Assembly: GCA_030603595.1 (NCBI GenBank)
Contig: JAUVXL010000004.1
Coordinates: 1-46,059 of the forward strand
Direction: 5' to 3'
DNA: 46,059 nucleotides
Source of the DNA: Sedimentisphaerales bacterium
GTDB lineage: Bacteria; Planctomycetota; Phycisphaerae; Sedimentisphaerales; Anaerobacaceae
The stretch's first letter is position 1; each line of letters starts with the position of its first letter. A program made the translations under genes and the position numbers. Shown piece after piece: positions 9,580 through 26,378 of this stretch. Under the pieces are notes generated by a model, which saw only the letters and a list, made by a program, of their open reading frames with translations, made no database searches and had not been told where the DNA came from.

Positions 9580-9829
9580 GGACACGGCCAAACAAGTTTG
9601 ACCGTGCCACCCCTGGCGGCGCGCTGGGATTGTGTATTGCGTGACAGTGCGGATGTTGGAAGGAGGGGGGCTGCGGGGCCGTTGAAAAACCCCATAGCAA
9701 TGACCGGCCAATGGCACAAAAGGTGGTTCTTGGTGTCCGGACACGGCCAAACAAGTTTGACCGTGCCACCCTTGGCGGCGCGCTGGGATTGTGTATTGCG
9801 TGGCAGTGCGGATGTTGGAAGGAGGAGGG
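9580..9829. repeat. Tandem pair of a 91-bp repeat with dispersed-repeat filler
   Basis: A 91-bp unit starting GGACACGGCCAAACAAG and ending near GGAAGGAGG occurs at 9580-9670 and again at 9739-9829 with about five differences. The sequence between and including the start of the second copy (9681-9773) is also found at 26253-26345 with only a few differences. ORFs over this region are repeat artefacts. Confidence 0.88.
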
Positions 9830-16733: not shown

Positions 16734-18881
16734 ATGAGCAAATCAATGAGATCACACCAAATAACCGGCATTTCACTGTTAGCCGTCGTTACAATATTGG
16801 TCGGCTGCGCTTCGACTTGTTTCGCAGCCAAGGCCGGGCCGAGGAAGGTTGTCAGCTTGAACGGCAAGTGGGAAATCGAGCAGGGCGGTATGGATTCGGT
16901 CCCAGAGCAATTCGGGCATAAGGTCCCTGTCCCGGGGTTGGCGGATATGGCTGAGCCGGCTTTTGCTGAGGTGGGCAAGAAAAGCGAAAAGCGCGAGGCT
17001 TTCTGGTATCGCCGGACGTTCAAGGTCAAGGGCAAGATACCCGCGGTCGCCATCCTGAAGATTCATAAGGCCAAGTACGGCACGAAGGTATGGCTCAACG
17101 GCGAGGTCGTCGGAGAGCACCTTCCCTGCTTCACGCCCGCCTTGCTGGATGTGAAGGGGCTACTCAAAGGCAACGGCGAGGAAAATGAGCTTGTTATACG
17201 TCTCGGGGCCAATCGGGAATCTGTCCCGGAGGGGCAGCCAGCCGGGTGGGACTTCGAGAAATACAAGTACATCCCCGGAATCTACGATTCGGTCGAGTTG
17301 ATCCTCACCGGCAAGCCCTATATTGTAAACGTCCAAACAGTCCCGGATATCTCGGCCGGAAAGGTGAGAGTCGTTACTGAGATGCAATGGTCCGGCAAGT
17401 CAGGGCGGGGTTCTGTGACTTATGAGGTCGTCGAGGCCAAAACGGGCAAATCCGTCGGTGCGGTGAAGGCCTCGGGCATACCGTCCAAGGCCAATGAGAA
17501 AACCTTGCTCGATGTCGTTATTCCTATAGAGAATTGCCGGCTGTGGTCGCCGGAGGATCCTTTCCTGTATGAGCTAAAGGTCAATACCGGCGGCGATGCG
17601 GTGAAAGTCCGCTTCGGGATGCGGTCGTTTCGATTCGACCCCAAGACTAGGCGGGCTATTCTCAACGGCAAGCCCTACTATATGCGGGGGACGAATGTCT
17701 GCGTGTATCGCTTCTTCGAGGACGATGAGCGGGGCGATAAGCCGTGGGATAAGAAGTGGGTGCGAAGGCTGCATCGCAAGTTCAAGAGCATGCACTGGAA
17801 CTCGATTCGCTACTGCATAGGCTTTCCGCCGGAGCTTTGGTATGAAATCGCGGACGAGGAGGGATTCTTGATTCAGGATGAGTTTCCCATCTGGCTGTTG
17901 GGCAAGGCGCCGGAGAATCCGAAGGCCGAAAGAATTATTCCCGAATACACCGAATGGATGCGCGAGCGATGGAACCATGCCTGCGTCGTGATCTGGGACG
18001 GGCAAAACGAGAGCATCACCAAGGAAACGGGCAAGGCCATCGGAGCGGTTCGGCATCTGGACTTATCCGGTCGTGCGTGGGAGAACGGGTGGGCCGAGCC
18101 GCAGAACCCGACCGACTTCGTCGAGGCACATCCTTATCTGTTCATCAAGGGCTGGCAGGGCAAAGAGTCGTTTCGTCTAAGAGATATGGCAAAGGTCTCG
18201 GGCGCACCTTATCTGCGCGACGCACAAAAGAAACTCGGCGTTCCCGTTGTTATCAACGAATACGCCTGGCTGTGGCTCACCCGCGAAGGCGAGCCAACCT
18301 GCCTGACCGACAAAGTCTATAACAGCTTGCTGGGGGCGGATTCGACCATAGAGCAGCGGCGTGAACTTTACGCCAAATACCTCGCGGCGCTGAGTGAGTT
18401 CTGGCGGTGCCACCGTGAGTGTGCGGGGGTATTGCACTTTTGCGGATTGACCTATTCGCGGCCGGGCGATAAGCCCAGGCCCGAGGGCGGGGCAACGAGC
18501 GACCACTTCGTCGATCTCAAGAAGCTGAAGTTCGAGCCTAATTTCGAGAAGTATGTCCGCGACGCCTTCTCGCCGGTCGGGGTTATGGTCGATTTCTGGG
18601 ATGAGGAGATTGCCCCATCGGCCCAGAGGTGGCTTAACATCTTTGTTATCAACGACTTGTATGAAGACTGGAGAGGAACGGTTGAACTGCGAATTGTCCT
18701 CGGCAAGAAGGTTATTTCCAAACAGTCGAAACCCTGCACAGTGGAGGGGCTGGGCCGGGAGATACTGACTTTCGACGAGAAATTCCCGGCCGAGATCGGC
18801 AAATACCGACTCGAAGCGCAGTTGGTCTCGAAGGCTGGCAAGGGCGCGACGAGTTTCAGAGAATTCGAGATTGCTCAATAG
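16734..18881 (+). CDS. Exported glycoside hydrolase family 2 protein
   Basis: A 715-residue enzyme with the GH2 plan: signal with a possible lipobox 'LVGC' (about 20-23), N-terminal sugar-binding jelly roll (about 35-190, 'VVSLNGKWEIEQGG', 'FWYRRTFKV'), an immunoglobulin-like domain (about 195-310), then a TIM barrel. Glu426 in 'WDGQNES' is the expected acid/base and Glu509 in 'VVINEYAW' the expected nucleophile. The family includes beta-galactosidases, beta-glucuronidases and beta-mannosidases; the substrate cannot be read from sequence. ATG has AGGAG six bases upstream. It is coupled to the methyltransferase-like gene ahead and leads towards the sulfatase. Confidence 0.9.
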   Translation: MSKSMRSHQITGISLLAVVTILVGCASTCFAAKAGPRKVVSLNGKWEIEQGGMDSVPEQFGHKVPVPGLADMAEPAFAEVGKKSEKREAFWYRRTFKVKGKIPAVAILKIHKAKYGTKVWLNGEVVGEHLPCFTPALLDVKGLLKGNGEENELVIRLGANRESVPEGQPAGWDFEKYKYIPGIYDSVELILTGKPYIVNVQTVPDISAGKVRVVTEMQWSGKSGRGSVTYEVVEAKTGKSVGAVKASGIPSKANEKTLLDVVIPIENCRLWSPEDPFLYELKVNTGGDAVKVRFGMRSFRFDPKTRRAILNGKPYYMRGTNVCVYRFFEDDERGDKPWDKKWVRRLHRKFKSMHWNSIRYCIGFPPELWYEIADEEGFLIQDEFPIWLLGKAPENPKAERIIPEYTEWMRERWNHACVVIWDGQNESITKETGKAIGAVRHLDLSGRAWENGWAEPQNPTDFVEAHPYLFIKGWQGKESFRLRDMAKVSGAPYLRDAQKKLGVPVVINEYAWLWLTREGEPTCLTDKVYNSLLGADSTIEQRRELYAKYLAALSEFWRCHRECAGVLHFCGLTYSRPGDKPRPEGGATSDHFVDLKKLKFEPNFEKYVRDAFSPVGVMVDFWDEEIAPSAQRWLNIFVINDLYEDWRGTVELRIVLGKKVISKQSKPCTVEGLGREILTFDEKFPAEIGKYRLEAQLVSKAGKGATSFREFEIAQ

Positions 18882-19002
18882 TATCTTTGGCTAATAGGAG
18901 GCTAATGAACTCAAACTGGCCGATTCTGTTTTCTTGATACGGCTACCCAAGGCACAAGTTTACACAGATTAACACGGTTTTTCATATACTTGGATTCCTG
19001 CT

Positions 19003-19140
19003 TGCGCAGGGCAGGTGTTTAGCCTGGGAACTGATTTTACGGGCGTGGTGGCAGGACGCGGGCTGGAAGCCCGCGATACGCGCGGGCGAGACGCCCGCGA
19101 CACGGTGCTGTTTTGCACGGCTAAACACGTACTGCGCAGG
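19003..19140. mobile_element. 122-bp MITE-like element with 8-bp target-site duplication
   Basis: The element 19011-19132 has 14-bp imperfect terminal inverted repeats: GCAGGTGTTTAGCC at the left, and GGCTAAACACGTAC at the right (12 of 14 match). It is bracketed by identical TGCGCAGG octamers (19003-19010 and 19133-19140). Removing the element and one octamer restores 'GGATTCCTGCTTGCGCAGG' running into 'AATGAC', the same kind of hairpin repeat seen intact at 21310-21333. The interior is GC-rich with further hairpins ('GCGGGCTGGAAGCCCGC'). There is no transposase, so it is non-autonomous. Confidence 0.8.
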
Positions 19141-19260
19141 AATGACAGATAGTCTTATCCTGTTGTCAGAATTGTAGTTACATTAGAATCTCAGCAAAAA
19201 GCAGTCAGTTTGAGTAATGAAGAATTATCGCTGTTGCTGTATTTAGAAGAAAATAGAGGC

Positions 19261-21210
19261 ATGGAGGACCGAGAAGTGGAATGTGTTTCAGGAACGCGTC
19301 GCGATTTTTTAAGGGCCTCCGGGCTTTACGCCTCAACATTCGTTGTTTCCGGCTGTGCATCGACACTCAGACGAGCGGGCGATATAGAGTTGCGTGACAG
19401 GCCCAATATTCTCTGGATAACGTGCGAAGACGTAAGCCCTCAGTATCTCGGCTGCTACGGCGACGACTACGCCACGACGCCGAATCTGGATAAATTCGCT
19501 GCCCAAGCGATGCGATACACCAATGCGTTCGCCACGGCGCCGGTTTGCGCGCCTTCGCGGTCGTGCCTGGTTACGGGCGTCTATGCGACTTCGACGGGGA
19601 CGCAGCATTTGCGTTCGGACGTCAAGCTGCCTCGCGGGATCAAGTGCTTCCCGCAACTGCTGCGCGAGGCCGGGTATTACTGCTCCAACAATTACAAGAA
19701 GGACTACAACTTCAAAGACGTCGGCGTCTGGGACGAGTCGAGCCCCGATGCTCACTGGCGGAATCGTAAGACGGGTCAGCCGTTCTTCAGCGTCTTCAAT
19801 TTTATGTCCACGCATCAGGGGCAGATCAACGGCTCGGACGAATTGTTCTTCGAGACATACAGATCGAAACTCAAGGGCGAAGAGCTTCACGATGGCGACA
19901 AGATAATCCTGCCTCCCTACTATCCCGACACGCCTTTCGTGCGAAAGATATGGGCGCGGTATTATGATCTGATTAGTTTTATGGATAAGCAGACGGCCGA
20001 TTTGCTCGCCGAGCTTGAGGCCGACGGCCTGGCGGATGAGACGATAGTATTCTTCTTCTCCGACCACGGCATGGGGCTGCCCCGTTTCAAGCGGACGCTG
20101 TACGACTCCGGGCTACACGTCCCTCTAATGGTACATTTCCCGGCGAAGCACCGGCAGTTGAGTCCACAGGCGGGCGGCAGTGAGATAGAAAGGCTGGTCA
20201 GCTTTGTCGATTTTGCTCCGACGGTTTTGAACCTGCTGGATTTGCCCATCCCTGATTATATGCAGGGCACGCCGTTTCTGGGCCCGCGCTCGTCGGCAGT
20301 GCGCAAGTATATCTTCGGCGCATCAAGCCGGGTCGATGAGGTCTATGAGCTGCAGCGGTGCGTCCGTGGCAGGCGATACAAATACATCCGCAATTTTATG
20401 CCGCACCTGCCCTACATTCAGGCGAGCGAATACCCGGACCGCGCCGAGATTATGCAGGAGCTTCGCCGGGCGGTTGCCGAGGACGAGCTCCCAGACGTGC
20501 AGAGATTCTGGTGGCTGCCTGGAAAGCCTGTCGAGGAGTTCTACGATACGCAGGCCGACCCGCACGAGATAAACAACCTTGCCGGTTCGTCCGCCCATAA
20601 GAGCATTATTGACAAAATGAGGAGAATCCTGCGGGGGTGGATTCTGGAGACTCGCGATACCGGTTTTATGCCCGAAGCTGAGATGCACATTCGCGCCAAA
20701 GGCTCGACTCCGCACCAGATTACGGCTAAGCCGAGGGAATATCCGCTCAGGCATGTGTTCGCGGCGGCCGAGCTTGTAGGGGCGTCGGAGGAGAAGCTGC
20801 CGGGGATGGTCGAGTGCCTGAATAACAGCGACAGTGCGGTTAGATACTGGGGTGTTGTTGCGTTGGGTGCGCTTGGCGATAAGGCGAAGAAAGCCGCCGA
20901 TGCGCTTACCGCAGCGCTGGGCGACCGGAGCCCGAACGTTCGCTTCGCCGCCGCGGGGGTCCTGTGCAACCTTGGGCGATGTGAAGATGCTGTTGGGGTT
21001 TTGGCCAAGGGGCTGCGGAACGGTCGCGAGACGGTTGTGCTGCACGCGGCGCGGGAGATTTACGGCATCGGCTCTGAGGCGTGCGGGATTGTCCCGCAGA
21101 TAAAACAGGCGCGGGCGGAATGTAAGAATCCCGACGGCAGCTACAAGAACAATAACCATGCAATGTTTATCGACTGGGCGCTTAAATACGCCCTGGCCAA
21201 CTGCAAATAA
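19261..21210 (+). CDS. Exported sulfatase (family S1) with C-terminal HEAT repeats
   Basis: Removes sulfate esters, probably from a polysaccharide. From ATG 19261 the product is 649 residues: a Tat-type signal 'RRDFLRAS' (13-20), then the alkaline-phosphatase-like fold with metal-binding 'WITCEDVSP', the formylglycine site Cys96 in 'CAPSR', 'FFSDHGMGLP', and a C-terminal part of about 110 residues built of HEAT-like helices ('SAVRYWGVVALGALGDKAKK', 'SPNVRFAAAGVLCNLG'). Activation needs a formylglycine-generating enzyme, which is not in the window. The start is uncertain: a TTG at 19210 is in frame and adds 17 residues, and neither site has a good ribosome-binding sequence. The MITE lies just upstream. 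Confidence 0.9.
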   Translation: MEDREVECVSGTRRDFLRASGLYASTFVVSGCASTLRRAGDIELRDRPNILWITCEDVSPQYLGCYGDDYATTPNLDKFAAQAMRYTNAFATAPVCAPSRSCLVTGVYATSTGTQHLRSDVKLPRGIKCFPQLLREAGYYCSNNYKKDYNFKDVGVWDESSPDAHWRNRKTGQPFFSVFNFMSTHQGQINGSDELFFETYRSKLKGEELHDGDKIILPPYYPDTPFVRKIWARYYDLISFMDKQTADLLAELEADGLADETIVFFFSDHGMGLPRFKRTLYDSGLHVPLMVHFPAKHRQLSPQAGGSEIERLVSFVDFAPTVLNLLDLPIPDYMQGTPFLGPRSSAVRKYIFGASSRVDEVYELQRCVRGRRYKYIRNFMPHLPYIQASEYPDRAEIMQELRRAVAEDELPDVQRFWWLPGKPVEEFYDTQADPHEINNLAGSSAHKSIIDKMRRILRGWILETRDTGFMPEAEMHIRAKGSTPHQITAKPREYPLRHVFAAAELVGASEEKLPGMVECLNNSDSAVRYWGVVALGALGDKAKKAADALTAALGDRSPNVRFAAAGVLCNLGRCEDAVGVLAKGLRNGRETVVLHAAREIYGIGSEACGIVPQIKQARAECKNPDGSYKNNNHAMFIDWALKYALANCK

Positions 21211-21232: not shown

Positions 21233-21365
21233 CTAATTAGTTCCTGTTGCGGAAAGCAAAAATCGCCAATGTCACCCCTGCGAAAGCAGGGGTCTATGGC
21301 TTGGAAACTGGATTCCTGCTTTCGCAGGAATGACAAATACTGTTTCCGCAACAGGTTCTAATTAG
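21233..21365. mobile_element. 133-bp inverted-repeat (MITE-like) element
   Basis: The two ends (21233-21255 and 21343-21365) are reverse complements over 23 bp with two mismatches, built around CTGTTGCGGAAA and TTTCCGCAACAG. The outermost 8 bp, CTAATTAG, is identical at both ends and could be a target duplication; it is also palindromic. The middle carries hairpin repeats 'CCCCTGCGAAAGCAGGGG' and 'ATTCCTGCTTTCGCAGGAAT'. There is no transposase. A shortened relative is at 12858-12895. Confidence 0.75.
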
Positions 21366-21394
21366 CGTTAAGAACATTTTTGGAGATAGCGACT

Positions 21395-26244: not shown

Positions 26245-26378
26245 ATGGGGCTGTTGAAAAACCCCATAGCAATGACCGGCCAATGGCACAAAAGGCGATT
26301 CTCGGTGTCTGAACACGGCCAAACAAGTTTGACCGTGCCACCCTTTGTGGTGAATTTGAACTTTCTCAACGGCCCCAT
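26245..26378. mobile_element. 134-bp inverted-repeat (MITE-like) element
   Basis: ATGGGGCTGTTGAAAAA (26245-26261) and the reverse complement of 26362-26378 (ATGGGGCCGTTGAGAAA) match at 15 of 17 positions. The interior 26253-26345 is the same repeat found at 9681-9773. At 9673 the left end is also recognisable (GCGGGGCCGTTGAAAAAC), but the right end there differs. It lies directly upstream of the Tat TIM-barrel gene and creates a false N-terminal extension of it. Confidence 0.7.

Follow-up and report, generated by a model that had tools for sequence, protein, structure and literature searches.

The window, that is, the whole stretch of DNA analyzed here (46,059 nucleotides), is the entire contig C304 of a 4.30-Mb metagenome-assembled genome (MAG) of 361 contigs. 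Between a gene for a glycoside hydrolase of family 2 (GH2) and a sulfatase gene it carries two miniature elements, one within the other, which we call MITE-A (inner) and MITE-B (outer). The closest named relatives of the GH2 protein are mostly Planctomycetota, including MAGs of Phycisphaerae and Sedimentisphaerales. Taking the ATG at 19261 as the start of the sulfatase, the spacer between both genes measures 379 bp. At the gathering threshold, an Rfam scan of the window gave two tRNAs and nothing else. The features are the following:

16734-18881, + strand: upstream gene, GH2 (ORF list and domain search)
18904-18908, + strand: left 5-bp target duplication of MITE-B, AATGA (search for pairs of terminal inverted repeats, TIRs)
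18909-19215, no strand assigned: MITE-B, outer miniature element with a REP hairpin, containing MITE-A (TIR-pair search)
18992-19010, + strand: left part of the interrupted REP hairpin, GGATTCCTGCTTGCGCAGG (read directly, own-genome comparison)
19003-19010, + strand: left copy of the 8-bp target duplication of MITE-A, TGCGCAGG (read directly)
19011-19132, no strand assigned: MITE-A, 122 bp, without genes (TIR pairs at 8 places in the same genome, and in 10 or more others)
19011-19024, + strand: left TIR of MITE-A, GCAGGTGTTTAGCC, degraded, the family consensus being GTACGTGTTTAGCC (read directly, family comparison)
19058-19099, + strand: inner hairpin pair GCGGGCTGGAAGCCCGCG / GCGGGCGAGACGCCCGCG, a repeat found outside MITE-A too (L008, L010, L013-L015)
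19119-19132, - strand: right TIR of MITE-A, exact GTACGTGTTTAGCC (read directly)
19133-19140, + strand: right copy of the 8-bp target duplication, TGCGCAGG (read directly)
19133-19146, + strand: right part of the interrupted REP hairpin, TGCGCAGGAATGAC (read directly, own-genome comparison)
19216-19220, + strand: right 5-bp target duplication of MITE-B, AATGA (TIR-pair search)
19261-21210, + strand: downstream gene, sulfatase (start ATG placed by comparison with relatives; the open reading frame as listed starts at 19210)
21310-21334, + strand: intact REP hairpin GGATTCCTGCTTTCGCAGGAATGAC (read directly)

The original prediction described a 122-bp element with 14-bp TIRs matching at 12 of 14 positions and the same octamer on both sides, and all of this can be read directly in the window. 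The ends of MITE-A, GCAGGTGTTTAGCC and GGCTAAACACGTAC, are complementary at 12 of 14 positions, the left one having GCAG where the family has GTAC. The decamer GTGTTTAGCC occurs exactly twice in the whole window, at both ends of MITE-A. When folded as single-stranded DNA, the unit forms one large multi-hairpin structure (z = -5.2 against shuffled sequences). A cluster with several copies of the GCGGGCGAGACGCCCGCG hairpin module, which is the core of MITE-A, was seen elsewhere (L019-L023, G000:C24:5774-6303).

MITE-A splits the hairpin GGATTCCTGC..GCAGGAATGAC, and the removal of the element and one octamer gives GGATTCCTGCTTGCGCAGGAATGAC. That this operation rebuilds a hairpin repeat was also part of the prediction, and intact copies identical to the rebuilt hairpin (28 of 28 bases, adjoining ones included) recur across the genome, while the hairpin at 21310 is a close relative. 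The reading as a MITE-type insertion, with an 8-bp target duplication, into a pre-existing repeat is supported, and the repeat can now be named: the hairpin that was hit is the middle of MITE-B. Since this hairpin belongs to an element with its own inverted repeats and 5-bp duplication, we are dealing with two nested insertions between two genes. MITE-B ends in ACTCAAACTG..CAGTTTGAGT, with ACTCAAACTG as its TIR. Uninterrupted, it measures about 161 bp (L363 in the same genome and L368 in G001), and the copy in the window, without MITE-A and one octamer, 177 bp. There were 14 pairs of MITE-B TIRs in the loci examined, seven of them with a direct repeat of 5-6 bp. In another genome, G029, several MITE-A copies are found inside MITE-B (e.g. 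L177, L197 and L373).

The window contains other repeats as well. A third inverted-repeat unit is found at 21233-21366, with arms of about 24 nt that are 92% complementary (TTAGTTCCTGTTGCGGAAA ..), enclosing two REP hairpins in opposite orientation, among them the intact one at 21310. It is probably another family of miniature elements, and the MITE-A copies in L002 and L003 have flanks similar to it. Positions 9580-9829 and 26247-26350 hold near-identical repeats (91-104 nt, 92-97%) with the hairpin CACGGCCAAACAAGTTTGACCGTG. Finally, the inverted repeat at 1838-1870 and 1963-1995, with arms TCATTGCGAGGCCTGAAAGGCCGTGGCAATCTC / GAGATTGCCACGTCGCTGCGTTCCTCGCAATGA that are 79% complementary and 92 nt apart, looks like another dispersed palindromic repeat.

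Homologous sites that lack the unit were found, so that one of the two results named as refuting the prediction is absent. In G001, which belongs to the same genus, the GH2-sulfatase junction has neither MITE-A nor MITE-B; its GH2 and sulfatase genes have 87% and 84% identity with those of the window, and there are only 45 bp between the aligned parts. The gap measurements gave a short distance for this genome too (L265), and the junction in G002 is likewise short. In 18 of the 19 relatives measured, fewer than 80 bp separate the GH2 stop from the sulfatase match, counted to where the match begins and not to the start codon. These were 19 of 23 loci with a sulfatase match, L270, L271, L316 and L324 being omitted for not being adjacent or being partial. 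The genome of the window also has two longer homologous units, L347 and L353, from which MITE-A is absent. Because the junctions of the relatives are short compared with the 379 bp of the window, it is most likely that both elements arrived after the split from G001, MITE-B first and MITE-A into MITE-B. Another locus, L333 (G001:C459), was considered as an empty site and rejected, as it has a MITE-B-like unit with a different insert of about 25 bp in the REP loop.

We identified 81 independent TIR pairs of the MITE-A family in at least 11 genomes, counting one pair per element end and requiring 38-bp flanks and a length of 80-340 bp. A previous list of 74 pairs was not used for counts, because it had overlapping alternatives (e.g. 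L104 with 294 bp, L096 with 183 bp and L101 with 120 bp). The elements are 97-316 bp long with 14-bp TIRs. Over 55 copies, positions 1-14 are almost invariant (at position 4, 75% have C and 23% have T) and conservation drops sharply past position 14. The interiors vary by genome and most are rich in hairpins. In the genome of the window, five copies (L001-L005) have the whole element in common, with 101 to 118 identical positions of 120-122, and L030, L035 and L037 match MITE-A at the ends only, with different interiors. Of the 89 genomes of the same GTDB family, 13 have the exact 14-bp end, against one match for the reversed control pattern. At the level of the order this end was present in 15 of 161 genomes, only two of them outside the family, one of these chance-like. 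L165 (G127) was rejected as a member, since it looks like a chance TIR match. The richest example is G029, with 89 ends at one mismatch or less and none for the control. Searches of plasmid and phage collections with MITE-A, and of viral contigs with an extended end pattern, gave no match.

The flanking octamers agree at 8/8 positions in 42 of the 81 pairs, at 7/8 in 14, at 6/8 in 9 and at fewer in 16. As a control, the octamers one step further out never agreed at more than 5/8, and a duplication of 7 or 9 bp fits none of the 81 copies. Other copies with the same ends do have different flanking octamers, so that the other refuting result, a lack of further copies, is absent too. The statement of the prediction that the family was mobile fairly recently has to be divided. 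For the family, recent movement is well supported by the sequence comparison: 25 of 91 pairs of 142-bp copies are identical with duplications that differ between copies, G029 foremost, and identical copies occupy different sites within one genome. For the copy in the window the case appears only moderate, because its left end is degraded, it is about 84-97% alike to the other copies of its genome, and no transposase with these ends was found in the families searched.

In order to examine the target, we rebuilt it by joining the flanks with one octamer at the 65 sites with a duplication of at least 6/8, and asked for a dyad whose arms pair at 5 or more of 6 positions, with a loop of 3 or 4 nt between them. 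In 48 of the 65 rebuilt sites, the dyad axis is displaced by 2.5-3.5 bp from the duplication centre, to one side or the other. Bands of the same width at other offsets contained 0 to 2 of 65 sites. The criterion was satisfied by 453 of 14551 random windows of the same loci (3.1%) and by 334 of 13000 shuffled sites, with a binomial tail of about 5e-58 for the 65 sites against the random rate. A first test, built differently, agrees, with a stem score of 7 or more in 35 of 55 sites against 1.5% of 15496 windows. As counter-evidence, 17 of the 65 duplicated sites fail the dyad test. Taken together, the target appears to be a DNA hairpin of many unrelated sequences and not one sequence. From the position of the dyad it therefore appears that the duplication takes in some three bases of the loop together with five from one arm, which can be the arm on either side. 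This off-centre dyad is unusual, because a symmetric recognition of the eight duplicated bases would centre the axis.

An alternative is that the transposase, as with ISPsy8 or ISRm22, recognizes the REP sequence itself (CCTGC..GCAGG) rather than any hairpin. REP-specific insertion sequences are indeed known (accessible part of PMC1525189), and cores of the CCTGC or CCCGC type are present in 34 of the 65 duplicated sites, 27 of these REP-like targets having the dyad. Yet among the 31 sites without a REP core, 21 have a dyad that is perfect or nearly so, at the same offset (binomial tail 7e-25), and all 21 sequences are different, for example CATCGCAAAGCGATG, ACCGGCTTTGCCGGT, GGTGCGATAGCACC and GTGGGCTAAAGCCCAC. 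With these data, recognition of the REP sequence seems strongly disfavoured.

The pattern could also be the product of survivorship, if insertion was nearly random and only intergenic hairpins (terminators or REPs) tolerated it. The copy in the window is intergenic, and prokaryotic MITEs tend toward intergenic regions (accessible part of PMC10969869). However, tolerance cannot fix a dyad at 3 bp to either side of the duplication centre with next to nothing in the neighbouring bands, which makes this explanation very improbable. Equally improbable is stem-loop replacement as carried out by IS1272 (IS1182 family), where the element takes the place of an excised target hairpin. IS1272 also prefers hairpins without a sequence consensus (PMC5678879, PMC4923244, in their accessible parts). 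Besides, among the 16 of 81 pairs with no clear duplication, several of which are still in hairpins, five (L004, L103, L119, L191 and L201) have flanks that are complementary to each other for 6 nt or more, compared with 7.2% of random flank partners. In L004, for example, ATACCTGCGAA and AAAGCAGGTAT flank the element. Against it, the perfect duplication in 42 of 81 copies is something that IS1272 does not leave, so that replacement is refuted for the main set of copies, and no locus with the IS1182-type domain PF13751 had MITE-A ends in the 11 genomes searched. The non-duplicated copies may have inserted without making a duplication, undergone a deletion afterwards, or recombined with one another; the five with pairing flanks have the look of an element lodged between the two arms of one hairpin, or of a product of recombination between two. 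The hairpin-rich element and its REP surroundings would suit a REPIN-like element that a RAYT (Y1/HUH) enzyme moves as a single strand. This can practically be discarded, since 8-bp target duplications and long TIRs are DDE features, and no duplicated target would be expected from REPIN movement.

Insertion into hairpins with duplication is hence the reading that we prefer. MITE-A is very probably a non-autonomous DNA transposon that would be moved in trans by a DDE-type transposase, because of the length of the duplication and the TIRs, with an 8-bp staggered cut and a choice of inverted-repeat DNA able to form hairpins or cruciforms. At the locus, the first event would have been the insertion of MITE-B between the GH2 and sulfatase genes, with a duplication of 5 bp, followed by that of MITE-A into the REP hairpin that MITE-B carries. 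One strand transfer would take place inside the loop of about 4 nt and the other about 5 bp into one arm. With transfers in loop and arm, the transposase probably sees an extruded or single-stranded hairpin, and an extruded cruciform or a single-stranded hairpin would be the simplest form of the target. This suggests that the missing enzyme reads the shape of DNA, judging from the rebuilt sites. Binding of the inverted repeat as double-stranded DNA would leave an identical sequence record. We also put forward, tentatively and as something that falls short of being probable, a broader proposal: an undescribed DDE lineage of Planctomycetota may integrate by shape into extruded hairpins, with strand transfers in the loop and 8 bp away in the arm giving the three loop and five arm bases, and its non-autonomous elements, which are arrays of hairpins, may land in mobile palindromes (REPs, other MITEs) and so build intergenic nests of repeats.

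A transposase gene carrying MITE-A ends, which the prediction proposed to search for, did not appear among the IS66, IS1182-type and DDE_Tnp_1 loci examined. For IS66 (PF03050) we searched the genome of the window and then 13 genomes, with 24 loci containing the domain, and none had MITE-A ends within 2 mismatches except for a match at L144. This locus was rejected as a partner, as the 2-mismatch TIR nearby sits outside that IS. No locus with these ends was found for PF13751 (11 genomes, 7 rows of matches) nor for PF01609 (DDE_Tnp_1; 8 genomes, 30 rows), the TIR being looked for at 36 loci of both families together with up to 2 mismatches. The search covered these three families, in fragmented MAGs. 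We also looked on the inward side of unpaired TIRs (40 stretches plus earlier loci), and many had a more diverged partner 120-182 bp away. Twenty ORFs beside unpaired TIRs, chosen from 65, gave no transposase by Pfam and 9 of the 20 were without any Pfam family; further ORFs near TIRs were inspected by eye only. One of the proteins seen there (L407:337-3210, G000:C270) is large, with a hydrazine synthase alpha middle domain (PF18582, E 1.9e-24) and a discoidin-like domain; it is probably not hydrazine synthase itself.

As a first guess, possible rather than probable, the partner could be an enzyme like those of IS66/ISBst12. This comes from the 8-bp duplication and the ends starting with GTA, features of IS66/ISBst12 (in part from PMC12898284) that are both present in the MITE-A family, and from a partial match of the ends. 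Counted by hand, the IS66 end GTAAGCGTTCACCC of the same genome and the ISDge4 end GTAACTGCTCAGCA (accessible part of PMC12898284) match 10 and 9 of the 14 TIR positions. The single IS66 copy with clean ends and a duplication (L146) had no evident dyad in its target by eye, and G110 has MITE ends and no match to the IS66 domain.

Most insertion sequences choose their targets by a short sequence or barely at all. Here we would have a family directed to hairpins, whose geometry can be read to half a base pair from genomes alone. This would give a handle on the existence of hairpins and cruciforms in living cells and on how transposases read the shape of DNA, it shows how nests of palindromic repeats could grow between bacterial genes, and it points to a possible enzyme for hairpin-directed integration.

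In the openly licensed literature we found no MITE described that targets hairpins and makes 8-bp duplications, and the accessible part of a review of prokaryotic MITEs mentions no such family (PMC10969869). The known systems are compared here from what is accessible of each source. With IS66/ISBst12 the family has the 8-bp duplication in common, but none of the IS66 copies in the 13 genomes has the MITE ends. MITEAba12 is around 110 bp, has no genes, carries TIRs and is flanked by target duplications, presumably being moved by a resident IS (PMC6382973). MITE-A is similar in all of size, lack of genes, TIRs and duplications. However, the duplications of MITEAba12 are 9 bp long and AT-rich, and its partner is known to be ISAba12 (PMC6382973), whereas the MITE-A family has hairpin targets, 8-bp duplications and no partner in the families searched. 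Insertion sequences that target REPs belong to several families (ISRm22, ISPsy8, IS1397, ISKpn1 and IS621), and ISRm22, of the IS4 family, gives 6-bp direct repeats at the axis of the palindrome (PMC1525189). Insertion in REP palindromes is shared with them, but they are tied to REPs and the MITE-A family also uses many unrelated hairpins, with an 8-bp duplication and the axis 3 bp off centre; it is not confined to one REP family, as 31 of 65 sites have no REP core and 21 of these are hairpins. The closest parallel in target choice is IS1272 / TnSha1 of Staphylococcus (IS1182 family), which targets hairpin-forming inverted repeats of any sequence and deletes the hairpin in part or whole without target duplication (PMC5678879, PMC4923244). 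The MITE-A family likewise hits hairpins without a sequence consensus, but it is non-autonomous and leaves an exact 8-bp duplication at a fixed offset from the dyad.
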